Shown here: piece after piece, positions 10,598-20,757 of the stretch
Numbering within the stretch: the first letter of the stretch is position 1
Layout of the letters: each line of letters opens with the position of its first letter
Assembly: GCA_019241425.1 (NCBI GenBank)
Contig: JAFAXA010000010.1
Location: 1 to 42,348 of the forward strand
Reading direction: 5' to 3'
Source: Acetobacteraceae bacterium
GTDB lineage: Bacteria; Pseudomonadota; Alphaproteobacteria; Acetobacterales; Acetobacteraceae
DNA length: 42,348 bases
Made by a program: the position numbers and the translations under genes
Notes under the pieces: model-generated
Told to the model about the DNA's origin: nothing
What the model saw: the letters and a program-made list of their open reading frames with translations, nothing else
Databases searched by the model: none

Positions 10598-11884
10598 TCA
10601 GCGCCGAGCGCCTCCCGGGACCGGCAATTGCTCGCTCTCCCCACGCGCGGCGCTTCGCTTCAGCATCTCCGTGACGTAGCGACCGAGCTTGATTCCAGGC
10701 CGCTCGACCAGGGTATGGGCGACGCATGCCGCCAGCACCAGCAACACCGTCGCCGCGAGGGCAAGGCTCCAATAGGCGAGCGGAGACGCCAGCGCCGCTT
10801 CCTTCAATGAAGCGGGCCGGAAGACCGCGGCGAGGAACAGGCCTTGCAACAGGTAGATGCCGTAACTGATATCGCCGAGCCTGCGGGCGGCCCGGCTCAC
10901 CAGCAGCCCGAACAGAGTGCTCCCTGATACGATCAGGTGAAACGCCGTCGCCAGCAGCACGACCGAGGTTACCGAGTACGGGTGATCCGGTATGGAGACC
11001 GCCAGGGCGATCAGCAGCACCACCAGCGCCGATGCGACCGCGTCGGGAAGTCCGAGGCCTTTTCGTTTCGCTTGCATGGATGCGGCGGCCATCCCGGACG
11101 CGAACAGCGCGACGCAGACGAGCCAATCGTGCTGATCGAGCGGAGCGAAATGCGCCGCGACGAGGCAGACCGGAACTCCGGAGGCGGCGAAGGCGAGATG
11201 CCACCGTCGGCGCGCGGCCAATGCGAGCACCGGCAAGCTGGCATAGAAGAACCACTCGAATTGCAACGACCAGGTCACGCCGGCAAGAAGCGAAAAGGTC
11301 TGCGCGTACCCGTTCACGTCCGGCTCCCGGCTATCGACGCCGAGCGAGAGCCAGGATGCGAGCTGAGCCGCGAGTTGGCGGGGTGCAACTTCAAGGGTAG
11401 GCCAGGTCAGGCAGAACACGATCAGCAACATGGCGCCGACAGCCACGAGATAGAGCGGCCCGATTCGGAACAGGCGGCCGGCATACAGCGAGAACCAGTC
11501 CGGGCGGCCGCGCGTTCGCAACAGCCGTCCCCAAAACAGGTAACCCGTGATCATGAAAAACAACGAAACGCCCGTGGCCCCGAGCAGCGAATAAACGCGG
11601 GACGGCGGAAACGTCCAACGTTCAGCCAGCATGTAGTTGTGATAGATCCCAACGTGGTGAAAGACGACGGCGAGCGCCAGGAATCCGCGCAACCCGTCGA
11701 GTGTGGCGACGCGAGGCGTCCGATCACTCGGCGGCGGGTCCGCGCCTGCGAGTAGCGGCGAGCGCGCCAGAACCAGCAATATTCCGACGCACACGAAGAG
11801 CGGCCAGACGGAGTGGAAGGCGAGGTTCAGACCCACCGCGCCAGCCCAACGACTCGTTTGTACATGTGTGCCCTCCGCGAGCAC
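10598..11884 (-). CDS. Acyltransferase-3 family membrane protein
   Basis: A 428-residue polytopic inner-membrane protein of the acyltransferase-3 (OafA/YrhL-type) family, which O-acylates sugars of O-antigen, exopolysaccharide or lipids using cytosolic acyl-CoA. After one N-terminal membrane segment (about 12-40) comes the family start TLDGLRGFLALAVVFHHVG, with the conserved Arg and the His pair. GVSLFFMITGYLFWGR and the later WSLQFEWFFYASLP motif also fit. About ten hydrophobic segments follow. The proposed start is GTG. It lies next to a glycosyltransferase block on the other strand, so modification of that glycan is a reasonable inference, not shown. Confidence 0.85.
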   Translation of the reverse strand: MLAEGTHVQTSRWAGAVGLNLAFHSVWPLFVCVGILLVLARSPLLAGADPPPSDRTPRVATLDGLRGFLALAVVFHHVGIYHNYMLAERWTFPPSRVYSLLGATGVSLFFMITGYLFWGRLLRTRGRPDWFSLYAGRLFRIGPLYLVAVGAMLLIVFCLTWPTLEVAPRQLAAQLASWLSLGVDSREPDVNGYAQTFSLLAGVTWSLQFEWFFYASLPVLALAARRRWHLAFAASGVPVCLVAAHFAPLDQHDWLVCVALFASGMAAASMQAKRKGLGLPDAVASALVVLLIALAVSIPDHPYSVTSVVLLATAFHLIVSGSTLFGLLVSRAARRLGDISYGIYLLQGLFLAAVFRPASLKEAALASPLAYWSLALAATVLLVLAACVAHTLVERPGIKLGRYVTEMLKRSAARGESEQLPVPGGARR

Positions 11885-12571
11885 CCTACGAATAGCCCTC
11901 GGCGGGAGAAACTCTAATGATTGCAGCCGATTCGCAATGCGTCTTTGCGTGGCACTTTAGCAACGGGAGGAGGGGAGGCGGTGCAGCCGGCCAAAACCGT
12001 CCCGGTGGAAGCCGTCGGGTAACCGCCCGTGTAAAACGGGGCTCGGCATTGAAACGCTTGCCGATTGATAGGGGCTCACCTCAACCGCTGAGATCACGGC
12101 GTCAGGACCGATCTACGTGAGGCTGAATACGTTCCCCCCGCCGGTCGGCGCGATGCGCGAACCAGCGACTCACACACCGTAATCGAACACGGGCGGCGAG
12201 CCATTTCCGTACGAAGAACGGGTCGCCTCTGTGCCGCGTAGCACCACCTGCGAGACGGGATCTCTCGTAATGGCTGCATTCACAGCCGATGCTGCGCCAA
12301 GATTCAATTCTTGCCAGATTACCCCGGCGCCGATCGCGCCGATGATCCGATCGGCTGAAACGTTACTGCCTCCTCTGGCATGGTTAAAGGCATACAGGCA
12401 CTCTGGCACGTTTCAACTATAACGTTCTCTCCGTTCGCGTTTGTCTCCCAAAGCGAGAGAATGCCACCACGCTGCTTTCGCTTAGTGAGGCGCGCTTGAC
12501 ACGCGTCTTGAGCGCTGACACACGGCGTGGCCTGCTCAAACATCGCCTTTCATGCTTGTCTGGAGATCGCA
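11885..12571. other. Long divergent intergenic region
   Basis: About 690 bases between the acyltransferase (minus) and the large glycosyltransferase (plus). GC content is visibly lower than in the neighbours. It must hold promoters for both directions, but no clear -35/-10 pair stands out. The right end contains TGGAG, six bases before the ATG at 12572, the ribosome binding site that fixes that start. One candidate small minus-strand frame is listed separately. No tRNA, insertion sequence or repeat array was seen. Confidence 0.5.
12170..12409 (-). CDS. Candidate small hypothetical protein
   Basis: A frame of 79 codons whose product is unlike the Arg-rich shadows elsewhere. It contains a hydrophobic Gly-rich stretch, IIGAIGAGVIWQELNLGAAS, followed by a polar C terminus ending in FDYGV. 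The only in-frame start is GTG at the high end. A near-perfect AGGAGG lies inside the frame, seven bases before the codons for VSADRI, but the codon there is GTT, not a usable start. It could be a small membrane-active peptide, a remnant of a broken gene, or chance. No family recognised. Confidence 0.25.
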   Translation of the reverse strand: MPECLYAFNHARGGSNVSADRIIGAIGAGVIWQELNLGAASAVNAAITRDPVSQVVLRGTEATRSSYGNGSPPVFDYGV

Positions 12572-15500
12572 ATGCCGGGAGCTGTGCCGGTCGTCGATGC
12601 GCACGGCAATCGATCCGCGTTCCAGTTCCCGACGCCGGCGGCGCCGATGCCCTTTACGGGAGAGCGCTACGTAAGCGGCCTCGTGGGAGACATCCAGAAC
12701 GAGCACTACCATCGCTATCTCTTCGCGCTGAGGTATGCCGAGGGACGTGACGTCTTGGACGTTGCGAGTGGCGAGGGCTTCGGGAGTTCCCTACTCGGGC
12801 AGGTAGCGCGCAGCGTCGTCGGCGTCGACCTAGACGCTTCTGCGGTCCGGTTCGCCAACGAAAACTATCTCAGCGAACGTGTGTCGTTCCGTCGAGGCGA
12901 CGCCGTCGCCCTCCCGATCGCGGATCACTCGGTCGACGTCGTGGTCTCATTCGAAACTATCGAGCATCTTGAGGATCATGAGGCGTTCCTGGCGGAAATG
13001 CGCCGTGTGCTGCGGCCCGGCGGCGTACTCGTCATCTCCTCGCCCGACCGACGTGTCTACACAGAAGAGGCCTCGCAGAAGAACCCGTTCCACGTTCACG
13101 AACTTGGGCGCCGCGAATTCCTGGATCTCCTCCGTGTCCACTTCGCCGAGGTCGCGCTCCTTGAACAGCGGAGCATGGCCGGCTCCGTCATCATGCGCGC
13201 CCCCGAGACCGGCAGCGAGGGCGGCGTTGAAGGCTTCTGCACGCGCGATGGCACGCTATTCGAGCGCGCCGCATCCATTCCCGACTGCCCGTACCTCGTC
13301 GCGGTGGCGTCCGACGCTTCGCTGCCAATCGTACCGCACAGCGCAATGTACTCGCCCCGCCAGATATGGCATTTGGAGGAGCGGCGGCAGCGCGCGGAGC
13401 AGCGCGCCGACGAGGCAGCGGGCGAGACAGCGCGGCTGTCGCGAGAACTGGACGCGGCCACGGCCGCGCGTGAACGCCGCAGCATCGAGGCCTCCCGGTT
13501 GTTGGAAACGCTGCAATGGGCCACCGCAGAGGGTGAACGCCGCGCCACCGAGGCCGCCCGGCTACTCGAAGAGCTGGCGCGCACCGAGGCCGAGCGGAAC
13601 GTGCGCGGACAAGAGCTCGAGCGCTCCAGGGCCGAGAGCGACCATCGAGGCACCAAGATTGTGCAGATGGCAAAGGAACTCGCGCTGGCACGGCACAAAA
13701 CGGAGGAGGCCGAGTTCCGCGTCCGGGAAAGCGAGGCCGCGCTCCGCCGGGTGTTGCAGAGCACGACGTGGCGCGTTTCGCGACCATTACGGACCATACT
13801 TGCCCGGCTACCGAGAGTGGCCAGACTGGGCCGCCGTTCGCTGCGGCTGGCGAAGTGGACGCTCTCGGGTCGCCTGGTCGAGGAGCTCCGTGGCCGCAGC
13901 CGACGTTTGGCCGAGTGGCGGGAAGCCGGGGAGCTGGAGCGGGTCGGAAGAATCAACAGCGCTTGGTATCTCAAGAGCAACGCGGACGTTCGCGCGGCCG
14001 GTTTCAACGCTGCCTGGCACTACGTGGTGCACGGACGGGCCGAGGGGCGGCTCCCGCATCCCCCGGCACCAGAAGGGAGTTCTCTATCCATTGCCGCTGC
14101 TCCCGCGCCGGCGCGGCCGGCCGAGAAGACGGTCGATGGAAAATGGGAGTGGGGGCGGTACGAAGCGACGGTGCGAAGCATCGCCGCGGATCGCGCGCGC
14201 TGCCTCGCCCAACTCAGAGTGGCACCCGGGCCGCCCATGATCGAGCTCGCGCATGCCGACCTCCCCAAGACGGCCAAGGACCTCGTTTTCCCGCATGCGG
14301 CGGAACCGGTGGTAAGCATCGTCGTCCCGGTGTTCAATAATTTCCGCTTGACACTCGAGTGCCTGCTTTCGATCCGACGATACACCGATGCTGCGGAGAC
14401 GCCCTATGAAGTAATCCTTGCGGACGATGCCTCGACGGACGCATCGGCTGAGATGCTGCCGCAAATCGGGAACACCGTTTACATTCGGAACGAGTCCAAC
14501 CTCGGATTTCTCATGAACTGCAACAGGGCGGCCTCTGCAGCCCAGGGCGAGTTCGTGCTGTTTCTAAACAATGACGTGCAGGTGACAGAGGGCTGGCTTT
14601 CGCCGCTCCTCGACGCCTTCCGTGCCAACGCCGCTGTTGGCGCGGTCGGCCCGCGAATCGTGTACCCGAGCGGCCGCCTTCAAGAAGCCGGAGCCCTCCT
14701 CAACCCGGATTGCAGCAGCGAACTGATCGGCCTGGACGACGACCCCGCACTGCCCCGCTACGGCTTCCCCCGCCGCGTGGACTACTGCTCCGGCGCATGC
14801 CTGATGTTGCGGCGGGATGTTTTTATCGACCTCGGCGGGTTCGACGAGGCATTCCGGCCCGCATACTGCGAGGATCTGGATCTGTGCCTTCGGCTGCGGC
14901 GAAACGGCCTTGAGACGTGGTATGTGCCCGCGTCCACAGTTCTGCATCATCTTAGCAGTACGTCGGACTCGCTCGACCGCAATTACAAGCTGCGTCACAT
15001 CGTTGTTAACCGGCAAAAACTGGCCGAGCGATGGCAGTCTGAGGTGGACGCAATCAATCGCATCCGGCTCTTTGCCTTCTACCTTCCCCAGTTTCACGCG
15101 ATCCCTGAGAACGACAGATGGTGGGGCAAGGGTTTTACGGAGTGGACGAACGTCGCGCGGGCGCGGCCGCAATTCGCTGGTCACGTTCAGCCCCGTATTC
15201 CCGCCGATCTTGGCTTCTACGATATTCGGCGACCGGGTGTCCTTGAAGAGCAGGCAGCACTGGCGCGCCGTTACGGGATCGAGGGATTCTGTTTCTATTA
15301 TTACTGGTTCGGTGGGAAGCGGCTCCTCGATGCGCCGCTGGAGGCAATGCTCGCCTCGGGCTCGCCCGACCTACCCTTTCTACTCTGCTGGGCAAACGAA
15401 AATTGGACTCGCCGCTGGGACGGTCTCGAATCCGAGGTGCTGATCGGCCAAGCGCACTCCGACGAGGACGACGCGGCGGTGATTCGCGACCTCATGCGCT

Positions 15501-16138
15501 ACTTCCGCGACGCGCGCTACGCGCGTGTGGATGGGCGGCCGATCCTGCTCGTTTACCGTGTCACGCTGTTCCCAGACTTTGCACGCACGGCGCAGATTTG
15601 GCGGGAGGCGTGCCGACGCGATGGCATTGGGGAGCTATACATCGCCATGGTGGCGTCCTTTGAGGCTTCGGGGGAGCCGACGGCGCCCGCCGCCTTCGCC
15701 TGTGACGCGGTGGTGCAATTCGTACCGCACGGGCACGCGGTGCCGAAGGAGTTGCCGACCGAGGCGCTGGAGCCGGGCTCCAGCGGCGCGGTGTACGACT
15801 ACGAGGCCTCAGTGCTTTCCTTCCTACGCCGCCCGCCGCCGGCCGGACCGTTCTTCCCCTCGGTGATGCCGGGCTGGGACAATACCCCCCGCCGGATGGC
15901 GGACTTCACGGCATTCGACGGTGCAACGCCCGGCGCGTTTCAGGCATGGCTCGAGGCGGCGATTCGCCTCAGCCGCGAGCACAACAGCGGCGACGAGCGT
16001 CTTGTCTTTATCAACGCCTGGAACGAATGGGCCGAAGGCGCCTACCTGGAACCCGACCGATATCTCGGGCACGCCAACCTCGAGGCCGTGCGAAACGCGC
16101 TGGTCGCGCACGCGACCCGCGCCGAATCGTCGGCATGA
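12572..16138 (+). CDS. Methyltransferase-GT2-WbsX multidomain glycan enzyme
   Basis: An 1188-residue multidomain protein. Residues about 25-210 are a class I SAM methyltransferase (motif I VLDVASGEGFG at 61-71; ETIEHLEDHEAFL later). About 255-400 is a charged coiled coil rich in Arg, Glu and Ala. Around 463-500 is a YLKSNADVRAAG...HYVVHGRAEGR motif common in glycan enzymes. About 580-800 is a family 2 glycosyltransferase (VSIVVPVFNNF, LADDAS, FLNNDV, CEDLDLCLRLR). About 830-1180 is a WbsX/GH99-like domain (FYLPQFHAIPENDRWWGKGF, WANENWTRRW, INAWNEWAEGAYLEPD). It probably builds and methylates a surface polysaccharide at the membrane. An in-frame ATG 15 codons upstream exists; this start has a TGGAG site. 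The next gene overlaps by four bases. Confidence 0.88.
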   Translation: MPGAVPVVDAHGNRSAFQFPTPAAPMPFTGERYVSGLVGDIQNEHYHRYLFALRYAEGRDVLDVASGEGFGSSLLGQVARSVVGVDLDASAVRFANENYLSERVSFRRGDAVALPIADHSVDVVVSFETIEHLEDHEAFLAEMRRVLRPGGVLVISSPDRRVYTEEASQKNPFHVHELGRREFLDLLRVHFAEVALLEQRSMAGSVIMRAPETGSEGGVEGFCTRDGTLFERAASIPDCPYLVAVASDASLPIVPHSAMYSPRQIWHLEERRQRAEQRADEAAGETARLSRELDAATAARERRSIEASRLLETLQWATAEGERRATEAARLLEELARTEAERNVRGQELERSRAESDHRGTKIVQMAKELALARHKTEEAEFRVRESEAALRRVLQSTTWRVSRPLRTILARLPRVARLGRRSLRLAKWTLSGRLVEELRGRSRRLAEWREAGELERVGRINSAWYLKSNADVRAAGFNAAWHYVVHGRAEGRLPHPPAPEGSSLSIAAAPAPARPAEKTVDGKWEWGRYEATVRSIAADRARCLAQLRVAPGPPMIELAHADLPKTAKDLVFPHAAEPVVSIVVPVFNNFRLTLECLLSIRRYTDAAETPYEVILADDASTDASAEMLPQIGNTVYIRNESNLGFLMNCNRAASAAQGEFVLFLNNDVQVTEGWLSPLLDAFRANAAVGAVGPRIVYPSGRLQEAGALLNPDCSSELIGLDDDPALPRYGFPRRVDYCSGACLMLRRDVFIDLGGFDEAFRPAYCEDLDLCLRLRRNGLETWYVPASTVLHHLSSTSDSLDRNYKLRHIVVNRQKLAERWQSEVDAINRIRLFAFYLPQFHAIPENDRWWGKGFTEWTNVARARPQFAGHVQPRIPADLGFYDIRRPGVLEEQAALARRYGIEGFCFYYYWFGGKRLLDAPLEAMLASGSPDLPFLLCWANENWTRRWDGLESEVLIGQAHSDEDDAAVIRDLMRYFRDARYARVDGRPILLVYRVTLFPDFARTAQIWREACRRDGIGELYIAMVASFEASGEPTAPAAFACDAVVQFVPHGHAVPKELPTEALEPGSSGAVYDYEASVLSFLRRPPPAGPFFPSVMPGWDNTPRRMADFTAFDGATPGAFQAWLEAAIRLSREHNSGDERLVFINAWNEWAEGAYLEPDRYLGHANLEAVRNALVAHATRAESSA

Positions 16139-18219
16139 CGGAAACGGTCTCCGGGTCGGCACCGATCACCGTCGTCGGCCATCCTTTCGCGCCGATTGGA
16201 ATGGGCGAGGTGCTGCGCTCCGTCGTTCGCTCTCTGCGCGCGGCCCATGTTCCCGTCGTCGTCCTCGACGTGTTCGGCTCGACGAACGCTGACCCGGGCC
16301 TGAGAGCCGAATTTGAGCCGATCCTCGCTGAACGCGTGGGGGCTGGGGCGAGCATCTTTTGTATCAATGGCGACGAGATCGAGCCGATTCTCGCCCATCT
16401 CGGCGCGCGCGCCGGATGCGGCCGGCGAATCGTCTGTCCGATGTGGGAACTGTCGCAATATCCCGATGCCTGGGCGCGGCATCTGGAACGCTTTGACGAG
16501 GTCTGGGCCGGCTCCGCGTTTATCCGGGACGCTCTCGGCGCGAGCGTGCGCGTCCCCGTGCAACACCTGCCGCTCGCGGTGCAACCGTCACCGCCGCCGC
16601 CGCTTGGGCGCCGCGCCTTCGGCATCCCGGAAGCCGCCTTCGCTTTTCTCACTTTCTTCGACCTGACCTCCTATATCGAGCGAAAGAACCCACACGCCGC
16701 CCTGGAGGCCTTCCGCCGCGCGCTCGCGAGCCGCCCGGATTTGGAATTGTGCTTCGTTGCTAAAATGAACAGCGGCAGCGCCCGGGCGGACGACCGCGAG
16801 CGCTTCCTCGAATACGCGCGCTCCATCGGCGATCGGCTTGTGCTACTCGACCGGACCATGCCTGATGCGGAGGTAAAGGCGCTCCATCTTTGCTCCGACG
16901 CCTTTGTTTCTCTGCACCGTAGCGAGGGCTACGGCCTCGGGTTGGCGGAAGCCATGTTTTTTGGGCGTCCGGCGATCGGGACCGCGTATGGCGGTAATGT
17001 CGATTTCATGACGCCGGATACGTCCATCCTGCTCGACCACACGCTCGTGCCGGTCGCGGAAGGCGCATACCCCCACGGGGCCGGGCAGGTCTGGGCCGAA
17101 GCGGACGTGGAGCAGGCCGCCGCTTCAATGGTCCGCCTGGCCGACAATCCGGTGGCCGGGCGCGACCTCGGCGCCTCCGCCAGCCGCCGAATGCGCACCT
17201 ATTTCAGCCATCGCGCGGCAGGCCTTCGCTACGCCGCGCAGATTGCCGCGACGCGCGACGAACCCGCGGTCAGGCAAGCGGGAGCGCTGGTGAGTGGTGC
17301 ATCCCGGGCGGACCGGGAGCGGTCGTTCGTGTACGCCCATAGTCGGCTGGCGGTGGCCGCCGCCGAAATTGTCGCTGCCCGGCACGGAAACATTGAGGAC
17401 GTTCTCGCCCCCCTCCGCGGCATGTCGCTCGACGAGTTCGGCTCCCTGCTCATCGGCATGCCCGACATGGAATTCCCGGGGCTTTCCCGGGTGCTGCCGG
17501 CGATGGCCGACGCCGAGATCCAGCGGGACTGGACTGGAAATGCCGGGATCCCGCTGCTTCGGCAGACACTCGGCTTTGTGCGCAGCGTTGCGCTGCGGTC
17601 GGCGGAAATCACTGGGAAGCCGCTCACGGGCCGCCGCATTCTTGACTTCGGCTGCGGCTATGGGCGGATCCTGCGCTTGATGTACTACTTCACGCCACCG
17701 GATCGCACCTTCGGCGTGGATCCGTGGGATCGTTCCATCGAGATTTGCACTGCCGCCCGCCTGCCCAGCCATTTGGCTGTGTCCGACTATCTGCCGCGCA
17801 GCCTGCCCGTTGGCGACAGGCGGTTCGGTCTAATCTACGCCTTCTCCGTTTTGACGCACACCTCCGAGCGAGCGACGCGACAGGCTCTCAGCGTCTTGCG
17901 GCACTACGTCGAGCCGGACGGTTTGCTGGCCCTGACAATCCGCCCGCGGGAGTACTGGGAACAGCTCGCGGATTTCGGCCGTGCGGTGGACGCTCGCCGC
18001 ATGCTCGCGGACCATGACGCCAAGGGCTTCGCCTTTGCGCCGCACGACCGTCCCGCAATCGAGGGCGACGTGACCTACGGCGACACTTCGATCACTCTTG
18101 ATTGGCTCGTGGCGAACGCGGCGGGGTGGCGCGTCGCGGGCTACGATCACAGCCTCGAGGACCCGCTTCAGGTGATCGCTTATCTGACCCCCGCATCGGC
18201 CGTGAGTGCCAAGCCGTGA
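16135..18219 (+). CDS. GT4 glycosyltransferase fused to a SAM methyltransferase
   Basis: A 694-residue two-domain protein. Residues about 1-380 form a GT-B fold, family 4 glycosyltransferase: an N-terminal PFAPIGMGEVLRS loop, FDLTSYIERKNPHAALEAF, and the C-terminal E-x7-E nucleotide-sugar motif in EGYGLGLAEAMFFG. Residues about 480-690 form a class I methyltransferase with motif I ILDFGCGYGRILR. A helical linker of about 80 residues joins them. Its ATG overlaps the upstream stop (ATGA), so the two proteins are co-translated. It likely transfers a sugar and methylates the same glycan. There is no membrane segment, so the cytosolic face is expected. Confidence 0.85.
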   Translation: MTETVSGSAPITVVGHPFAPIGMGEVLRSVVRSLRAAHVPVVVLDVFGSTNADPGLRAEFEPILAERVGAGASIFCINGDEIEPILAHLGARAGCGRRIVCPMWELSQYPDAWARHLERFDEVWAGSAFIRDALGASVRVPVQHLPLAVQPSPPPPLGRRAFGIPEAAFAFLTFFDLTSYIERKNPHAALEAFRRALASRPDLELCFVAKMNSGSARADDRERFLEYARSIGDRLVLLDRTMPDAEVKALHLCSDAFVSLHRSEGYGLGLAEAMFFGRPAIGTAYGGNVDFMTPDTSILLDHTLVPVAEGAYPHGAGQVWAEADVEQAAASMVRLADNPVAGRDLGASASRRMRTYFSHRAAGLRYAAQIAATRDEPAVRQAGALVSGASRADRERSFVYAHSRLAVAAAEIVAARHGNIEDVLAPLRGMSLDEFGSLLIGMPDMEFPGLSRVLPAMADAEIQRDWTGNAGIPLLRQTLGFVRSVALRSAEITGKPLTGRRILDFGCGYGRILRLMYYFTPPDRTFGVDPWDRSIEICTAARLPSHLAVSDYLPRSLPVGDRRFGLIYAFSVLTHTSERATRQALSVLRHYVEPDGLLALTIRPREYWEQLADFGRAVDARRMLADHDAKGFAFAPHDRPAIEGDVTYGDTSITLDWLVANAAGWRVAGYDHSLEDPLQVIAYLTPASAVSAKP

Positions 18220-18553
18220 CGGTCGCCCACGTGCGGCCGACAACAGCCCTGGTGTGAGGCATTGTTATATTGCATCCACTAGGCTGGTCGGCTCGGTTAC
18301 AACAAAAACGTCACCGGGGCTCGGCCGTTGCGGCACTGGGTAGGCCGTACTCGGATAGAACTACGCCGGGGTACCGGAGTAGACGGTCACGTTGCGTTTG
18401 CCTATTTGATTTTGACGGCCGTATGATGCTACCGCGTTACAATGCGTGGCAATACGCGCGTGCCGTTGCCCGCGGGTTTTCTGACGGTCGTCGATCAGGC
18501 TCGCGGGGTGTTCCCTGCCATCCTGGAGGTGACGCCTCTTGGGGGAGAGACCC
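18220..18553. other. Intergenic region before the SABATH gene
   Basis: About 330 bases of lower GC content separate the GT4 fusion from the SABATH gene, so a separate promoter is plausible. A weak sigma-70-like candidate is TTGACG at 18412-18417 with GTTACA 18 bases on. The right end holds GGGGGAGA a few bases before the ATG at 18554. Frames crossing this stretch are Arg-rich and not convincing. Confidence 0.4.
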
Positions 18554-19582
18554 ATGCTTGAACCCGTCATGGAAGGACGCGGCTTCTACAACCAGCATTC
18601 GGAGTTGCAGGCGCGCTCCGCGGCGGAAGCGGATGCGGTGCTGGATCGCGCGCTCGCCGCAGTCGCGATTCCGCCCGGACCGCTCACCATTGCGGATTTC
18701 GGTTCCTCGCAGGGCCACAATTCGCTGCGTCAAATGGCGCGCGCGCTGGACCGGCTCGCGGAGCGCAGCGCCGAGCGACGGGACGTCATGGTGGTCCATA
18801 CGGACCTGCCGCATAGCGATTTCACCTCGCTGTTCGTGATGCTCGAAACTGCGGCGGATAGTTACCGGCGGGGGCGGGACCACGTTTTTGCGTCCGCGAT
18901 CGGCCGTTCGTTCTACGAGCGGCTGCTGCCGGCGGAGAGCCTCACCTTCGGATGGTCGGCCTTCGCTCTCCACTGGATGAGCGCCCTGCCGCTCGCCTTA
19001 CGCAAGCACATCTGGCCGGTCGAAGCGGCGCCCGACGAGGCGAAGGCGCTCGCGGAGGTGTCGTCGGCGGATTGGCGAAACTTCCTCGCCCACCGCGCCG
19101 AAGAGATGGTCGTCGGCGGTCAACTCGTGCTGGTCATCGGTGCTCTGGACAAGAACGGCGCGACCGGCCTTGAGCCGATGATGGATCTGGCGAACGGCGT
19201 GTTGGCGGCGCTGGTCGCCGAAGGCAAGCTCGGCGCCGATGCGTATGCCGCCATGACCATTCCATCACGCCCGCGCACCGAGAATGAGTTTACCGCGCCG
19301 TTCGACAACGGCGAGCTGCCGACGCTCGCGCTCGCCGAGCTGATGATCGCGGAAACCCCGAACGCGGCGATGCTGCGCTGGCAACAGAGCGGCGACGCGG
19401 CGCTGTTTGCCGCCGACATCACCGGCTTCTTCATCGCCGCCTTCGGGCCGTCGCTGTTCGGCGACAACACCGCGTTGCGCGACCTGTTCACCAGCCGCTT
19501 CACGGCCGCCATCGCCCTGGCACCTGGGGAGATCGCCCGGCCTTTGGTCACGGCCACCCTGCGCATCGTTCGTGGTGCATGA
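18554..19582 (+). CDS. SABATH-type carboxyl methyltransferase
   Basis: A 342-residue protein that matches the SABATH (Methyltransf_7) family, best known for plant salicylate, jasmonate and indole-acetate carboxyl methyltransferases. In order: FYNQHSELQ with S16 and Q19; IADFGSSQGHNSL with D48; HTDLPHSDFTSLF with D84; RSFYERLLP with S119 and F120; ALHWMSALP with H140 and W141; and FLAHRAEEMVVGGQLVL. These cover the SAM-binding residues and the Gln/Trp pair that holds the substrate carboxylate in the plant enzymes. It should methylate a small carboxylic acid or an acidic glycan part; the substrate is unknown. GGGGGAGA precedes the ATG. A GTG/TTG further out is less likely. The stop overlaps the exostosin gene (ATGA). 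Confidence 0.85.
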   Translation: MLEPVMEGRGFYNQHSELQARSAAEADAVLDRALAAVAIPPGPLTIADFGSSQGHNSLRQMARALDRLAERSAERRDVMVVHTDLPHSDFTSLFVMLETAADSYRRGRDHVFASAIGRSFYERLLPAESLTFGWSAFALHWMSALPLALRKHIWPVEAAPDEAKALAEVSSADWRNFLAHRAEEMVVGGQLVLVIGALDKNGATGLEPMMDLANGVLAALVAEGKLGADAYAAMTIPSRPRTENEFTAPFDNGELPTLALAELMIAETPNAAMLRWQQSGDAALFAADITGFFIAAFGPSLFGDNTALRDLFTSRFTAAIALAPGEIARPLVTATLRIVRGA

Positions 19583-20577
19583 GGGGGGTGCGGCACACCC
19601 AAAGCGGCCATAGTCGCGAGAGGGTGTTCGTTACCGCGTATCGAAACGACGAAGCCGAAAAGGTCGCACAAAACCTACGCCGCCTGCACGGCGCCTCCAA
19701 TGGTCTGCACGAACTCGCTGCTGATCCGCAATCGGCGTCCATCATCATGATCGGCGGCATCGGCAACGAGATGCGGCAGCGTGATTATCTGCTCCAGACG
19801 CTGAATAACCGGCTCATCGACGCATTCGCACGAAAGTGCTTTACCTTTTCGTATCGCGATACACCGGTCGTGTTCAACCGGGGTGTTTACGAAAGTGCGA
19901 CAACGTCCCGCTGGGCGCCCGGCCGTTGTTCTGCCGGGACGTATGCCCTTTCGGGTCATTTCAACGGCAAGATCGGCGCCATGCCAGTCGCTGGAAAGTA
20001 CCTGCTCTTCAGCTTCATAGGACGGATATCTCACAAATGCCGGGCGCAGATCCTGACCCAGCAATACAACAGGCGCGATATCGTCCTGGAGGATACGTCA
20101 CAGTTTCACTATTGGACCGCCCCGGATCATGTCCGGGATGATCGCGAAAGCCACTTTGCTTCGGTCCTGAGCCGCTCCAAGTTTTGTCTCTGCCCTCGCG
20201 GTGTCGGAACCGGGAGCATCAGGCTTTTTGAGGCCATGCGCGCCGGCGTGGCTCCGGTAGTCATCGCCGATCGTTGGGTTCGGCCAATGGGAATTGCTTG
20301 GGATGAGTTCTCCATCTTCGTCGGGGAGAACGACCTCCGATCGCTTGAACGCAGGATCGTCGAACGCGAGCGCGATTTCGCGGCGATGGGAAACGCCGCG
20401 CGGCGCGCATGGGACGCGCATTTCTCCGAACCGGAACACTTCAACTACCTGGTCGACGTCTGCGTGACGATGATGCGCGAGCAACGCATCCCGGAATCGG
20501 CCTATTGGGCGAGCCGTCATCTGATTGCGTCGACCGCTGTCGCAACGAACCTTGGACGGCGTCTCCGCCGAGCATAG
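19579..20577 (+). CDS. Exostosin-family (GT47-like) glycosyltransferase
   Basis: A 332-residue protein with the exostosin/GT47 C-terminal half: LLFSFIGRISHK near 135-150, then FCLCPRGVGTGSIRLFEAMRAGVAPVVIAD, the typical donor-binding segment, and a downstream FSIFVGENDLRSL. The N-terminal half is less conserved. There is no membrane anchor, unlike the animal exostosins. It begins in the stop of the SABATH gene, so the two are translationally coupled and probably act on the same product. The sugar donor and acceptor are unknown. Confidence 0.82.
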   Translation: MRGVRHTQSGHSRERVFVTAYRNDEAEKVAQNLRRLHGASNGLHELAADPQSASIIMIGGIGNEMRQRDYLLQTLNNRLIDAFARKCFTFSYRDTPVVFNRGVYESATTSRWAPGRCSAGTYALSGHFNGKIGAMPVAGKYLLFSFIGRISHKCRAQILTQQYNRRDIVLEDTSQFHYWTAPDHVRDDRESHFASVLSRSKFCLCPRGVGTGSIRLFEAMRAGVAPVVIADRWVRPMGIAWDEFSIFVGENDLRSLERRIVERERDFAAMGNAARRAWDAHFSEPEHFNYLVDVCVTMMREQRIPESAYWASRHLIASTAVATNLGRRLRRA

Positions 20578-20681
20578 AAGCTCCCCAGGCTATCCAGCGG
20601 CGCACCGGTATTGCCTTCGATGGTAAAGAACCTGCCGACGCAAGGAAAGCTTGGCCGGAACGGGTGTGGTCGCGAGATGGG

Positions 20682-20757
<76 letters not shown>

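Follow-up and report, generated by a model that had tools for sequence, protein, structure and literature searches.

The locus analyzed here raises the question of whether a SABATH carboxyl methyltransferase, encoded directly beside a glycosyltransferase gene in an alphaproteobacterial glycan block, forms a functional unit with that neighbor, and whether it has the plant origin implied by the term "plant-like" in a sequence-only reading of the DNA. The window, meaning the whole stretch that was analyzed, comprises 42,348 nucleotides of an Acetobacteraceae bacterium. Two genes within it are central to the question:

18554..19582, plus strand: 342-aa carboxyl methyltransferase of the SABATH family (PF03492), SAM-dependent, in the FAMT-type bacterial clade (reading frame, Pfam, tree and structural model)
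19579..20577, plus strand: exostosin-family GT47 glycosyltransferase, 332 aa, in ATGA overlap with the SABATH stop codon (Pfam; GC3 0.69)

The segment 18554–19582 is a real gene of the SABATH family. Its reading frame runs uninterrupted from the ATG at 18554 to the TGA at 19582, and the same start codon is used in the 73% identical homolog L007 (MLEPVMQG...). A Pfam profile search matched PF03492 with an e-value of 2.7e-36 (125.9 bits, cut-off 29.8) and returned zero further families at an e-value of up to 1. With no family scoring better, the SABATH membership proposed from sequence stands. Other methyltransferase families were considered and rejected, as Pfam gave none and NCBIfam a single meaningless weak match.

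In an alignment with the sequences of solved structures, S16, Q19, D48, D84, S119, F120 and W141 lie opposite S22, Q25, D57, D98, S129, F130 and W151 of the plant enzyme SAMT. All seven residues named earlier are hence at their expected positions and include the SAM-contact set (S16, D48, D84, S119, F120) as well as the carboxylate pair Q19 and W141. The enzyme looks intact and is likely active, and the earlier suggestion of activity gains support to this extent.

The nearest solved relative is the fatty-acid O-methyltransferase of Mycobacterium marinum (MmFAMT; PDB 5f2k, e-value 1.9e-52), with 38% identity. Profile searches favored FAMT (e-value 1.4e-126) over SAMT (e-value 1.2e-35). The AlphaFold model (pLDDT 93.5) is predicted to adopt the SABATH fold with a Rossmann core and a helical cap, and its top 13 structural matches were all SABATH proteins (Z 32–46). 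It superimposed on MmFAMT with a Z-score of 45.7 and 1.5 Å over 338 residues, compared with Z-scores of 32–38 for plant SABATHs (36.8 for plant SAMT) and below 20 for every other family listed. In a maximum-likelihood tree of 28 sequences, a small set with some long branches in which the plant sequences came from printed alignments and two lacked the C-terminal part, the protein fell inside a 10-member bacterial clade together with MmFAMT (support 100/98). A constraint placing it with three plant enzymes was rejected (AU p 3.8e-6). "Plant-like" therefore does not hold as a statement of origin, and plant ancestry via gene transfer was ruled out by the tree.

The alphaproteobacterial SABATHs in this tree belong mainly to two groups, this FAMT-type clade and a second clade in which a GGTS-like motif replaces NSL. 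Two further alphaproteobacterial sequences, L009 and L005, are very divergent and sit on long branches; L009 joined the plant enzymes only weakly, possibly as an artifact of its long branch.

The contact with the glycosyltransferase gene is real, as the sequence-only reading had described it. The GT47 ATG at 19579 and the SABATH TGA at 19580–19582 share the ATGA at 19579–19582, and PF03016 matched the downstream reading frame with an e-value of 1.7e-20, in the C-terminal half only. The GT47 start codon was set by the reading frame alone, and the N-terminus is unsupported by homologs. Overlaps of 4 bp usually signify co-transcription, so some joint expression of both genes is likely. Together with the glycan genes upstream, this overlap would fit a glycan-modification pair, in which GT47 would attach an acidic sugar, uronic or otherwise, for the SABATH enzyme to methyl-esterify. 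There is also a biochemical parallel, since two solved plant SABATHs, the loganic and geniposidic acid methyltransferases, use glucosylated acids; both loganic acid and geniposidic acid are glucosides. To our knowledge, methyl-esterification of an acidic glycan is unrecorded for SABATH enzymes.

Genome surveys and base composition speak against such a pair. PF03016 was found by profile survey in none of 24 other SABATH-bearing genomes, a protein search located a distant GT47 relative in only two of 199 other genomes of the family, and neither of these two had a SABATH match. Measured in frame, GC3 was 0.83 for the SABATH gene and 0.69 for the GT47 gene, with 0.76–0.78 for other genes of the glycan block and approximately 0.85–0.88 for flanking core genes. 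The SABATH gene is thus host-like and the GT47 gene atypical, and the two look like pieces of different history.

The surroundings of the pair are as follows:

12527..16138, plus strand: methyltransferase-GT2-WbsX multidomain protein, 1203 aa (Pfam)
15946..18219, plus strand: reading frame with GT4 and methyltransferase domains (Pfam; start uncertain)
18220..18553, plus strand: intergenic gap between the upstream glycan gene and the SABATH gene, with a weak sigma-70-like site at 18398–18427 (consensus match only)
20682..20757, minus strand: tRNA-Lys(CTT), bounding the block on the right, with the 3′ end directed toward the block

Because of the gap of about 334 bp between the end of the upstream glycan reading frame (18219) and the SABATH start, and the sigma-70-like site within it, the SABATH gene is not obviously co-transcribed with the upstream glycan genes. 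The GT4-methyltransferase reading frame overlaps the gene of the 1203-aa protein by about 190 bp, and its start is probably placed too early. The same probably applies to a metallo-beta-lactamase-fold reading frame at 1542–2657, whose Pfam domain begins only at residue 130 and whose 5′ part contains a tRNA-Thr(CGT) on the minus strand (1654–1728).

The region 10598–20682 constitutes a block of acyltransferase and glycan genes adjoining the 3′ end of tRNA-Lys(CTT). The arrangement of tRNA-Lys and liv genes is kept in three relatives, whose liv loci show 79–86% identity in livH (tblastn). Block genes were absent to the left of tRNA-Lys in L066 (a long sequence) and L067 (a short stretch), and the block was not present at the tRNA-Lys/liv site of the relative G018. 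The whole block therefore appears to be accessory in this genome. We looked for direct repeats that would indicate integration at tRNA-Lys and discarded the idea, as only chance-level 12-mers appeared; no integrase domain was detected among the block genes scanned with Pfam, and no att repeat was found.

SABATH genes are sparse in related bacteria. The family profile identified them in 13 of 385 genomes of the class, and a single-protein search in 11 of 200 genomes of the family and four of 398 of the phylum. The genome studied here carries two, the second at C46:14010-14987 (G000; L006, L033). This second protein has 56% identity to MmFAMT and 37% to the protein encoded at 18554–19582, and it keeps Q154 of MmFAMT. 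Its gene adjoins sugar ABC-transporter-like and Gfo/Idh/MocA genes.

Looking at the closest orthologs, we found 73% identity for L007 (from a MAG labeled Rhodovastum atsumiense), 71% for L008 (from a MAG labeled Xanthobacteraceae) and 53% for G509. Their genes lie beside, respectively, an Nramp transporter, a short-chain dehydrogenase with a GntR regulator, and a topoisomerase IB with glcDEF-like genes, of which glcE and glcF were assigned from sequence and gene order. No glycan genes were found next to these orthologs of 53–73% identity, and no partner gene common to the SABATH loci examined was seen. A homolog on a Novosphingobium plasmid overlaps the gene of a flavin-dependent oxidoreductase, not of a GT47. 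This homolog (L076:4977-6038; NZ_CP017077.1) is annotated as hypothetical, the overlapped gene encodes an LLM-class flavin oxidoreductase, and an aromatic ring-hydroxylating dioxygenase gene lies about 3 kb away. Plasmid carriage was considered and dropped, as just three distant plasmid matches of at most about 37% identity turned up.

The contact with GT47 is thus most likely a local accident and the pairing private to this genome among those surveyed. The orthologs of 71–73% identity, located outside glycan loci, have identical pocket residues, which weighs against the glycan-modification pair. F137, G196, M209, M210, F293 and A296 are the hydrophobic equivalents of the positions that form the SAMT pocket, an alignment-based mapping that is uncertain near residue 196. 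Across the ortholog clade, including members without GT47, they are constant or conservatively replaced in the alignment, a pattern that favors a hydrophobic free acid over a sugar acid as the substrate. The active site of loganic acid methyltransferase, in contrast, is mainly polar, unlike in other SABATHs (PMC10420828). We consider a pair that modifies an acidic sugar very unlikely, and a recent two-gene unit producing a methyl-esterified acidic glycan likewise very unlikely. The meaningful glycan link suggested by the sequence-only reading is accordingly not borne out; of its two suggestions, the separate small acid is to be preferred, and the methyl ester on an acidic sugar is not supported.

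The position of H140, where the alignment places the active-site Q154 of MmFAMT, deserves a closer look. The carboxylate clamp reads His-Trp-Gln in the ortholog group, as in plant enzymes, and Gln-Trp-Gln in the fatty-acid enzyme. In loganic acid methyltransferase, Q38, H162 and W163, the equivalents of Q19, H140 and W141, bind the carboxylate (PMC10420828). Given H140 in place of Q154 and only 38% identity to FAMT, something other than a fatty acid may be the substrate. The ortholog group might then be a distinct bacterial SABATH subfamily that uses its His-Trp-Gln clamp on an aromatic or other non-fatty acid. Consistent with this, the gene forms its own clade with L007, L008 and L021 (100/99), in which H140, G196, F293 and A296 are common to all four while the positions of FAMT Q154, M214 and A312 differ, and the genome has a separate FAMT-like paralog. 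However, histidine at this position is common among the aligned bacterial sequences and so probably ancestral rather than special, the pocket mapping carries the uncertainty near residue 196 already mentioned, and aromatic pathway genes are not conserved alongside SABATH. A distinct subfamily is therefore unlikely in our estimation.

We regard it as quite probable that the gene encodes a stand-alone, accessory bacterial SABATH of the FAMT type that methylates a small hydrophobic free acid, the overlap with GT47 being local and not the mark of a functional unit. In such an enzyme, SAM would be held in the Rossmann core and a small, largely hydrophobic free acid would be bound under the helical cap, its carboxylate gripped by Q19, H140 and W141. 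A carboxylate oxygen would attack the SAM methyl group, yielding a neutral methyl ester that is probably volatile or membrane-permeant. The substrate would be expected among medium-chain fatty or aromatic acids. One point against a FAMT-like role is that the second SABATH of this genome could already supply a fatty-acid activity.

The gene is mostly ordinary, as a structure and an activity are already on record for its bacterial family, and it leaves the understanding of the SABATH family unchanged. With it, one alphaproteobacterial genome gains a second, divergent SABATH, and the survey illustrates that these enzymes, sparse as they are, are spread through the class without a fixed partner. 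If the ortholog group does use a non-fatty acid, it could aid in picking bacterial enzymes for methyl ester production.

Among known systems, CysG and BelI are carboxyl methyltransferases as well, and the paper on them makes no mention of SABATH (PMC11427300). The neighboring GT47 belongs to the same family as a protein encoded on the Gloeothece plasmid NC_011738.1 (29% identity, 88% query coverage); it differs from the other bacterial GT47 proteins in its SABATH pairing, which was seen only in this window, no SABATH gene being found in either family genome that has a distant GT47 relative. With the plant SABATHs (SAMT, 1m6e; loganic acid methyltransferase, 6c8r; IAMT, 3b5i), the protein shares the Pfam family and the SAM residues, and with the latter two also the His-Trp-Gln carboxylate grip, but identity is only about 27%, the clade is separate by the AU test and the structural Z-scores stay at 32–38. 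The closest known system is MmFAMT (PDB 5f2k/5f2n/5f2o), which methylates C8–C12 fatty acids and 3-hydroxy acids (PMC9744835). Both share the family, a well-supported bacterial clade, the SAM residues, the glutamine and tryptophan of the clamp and a near-identical predicted fold (Z 45.7, 1.5–1.6 Å), but their identity is just 38%, and they differ in H140 for Q154 and in several further pocket positions. Judged by its sequence, the protein is a FAMT relative by clade that has H140 where MmFAMT has Q154.
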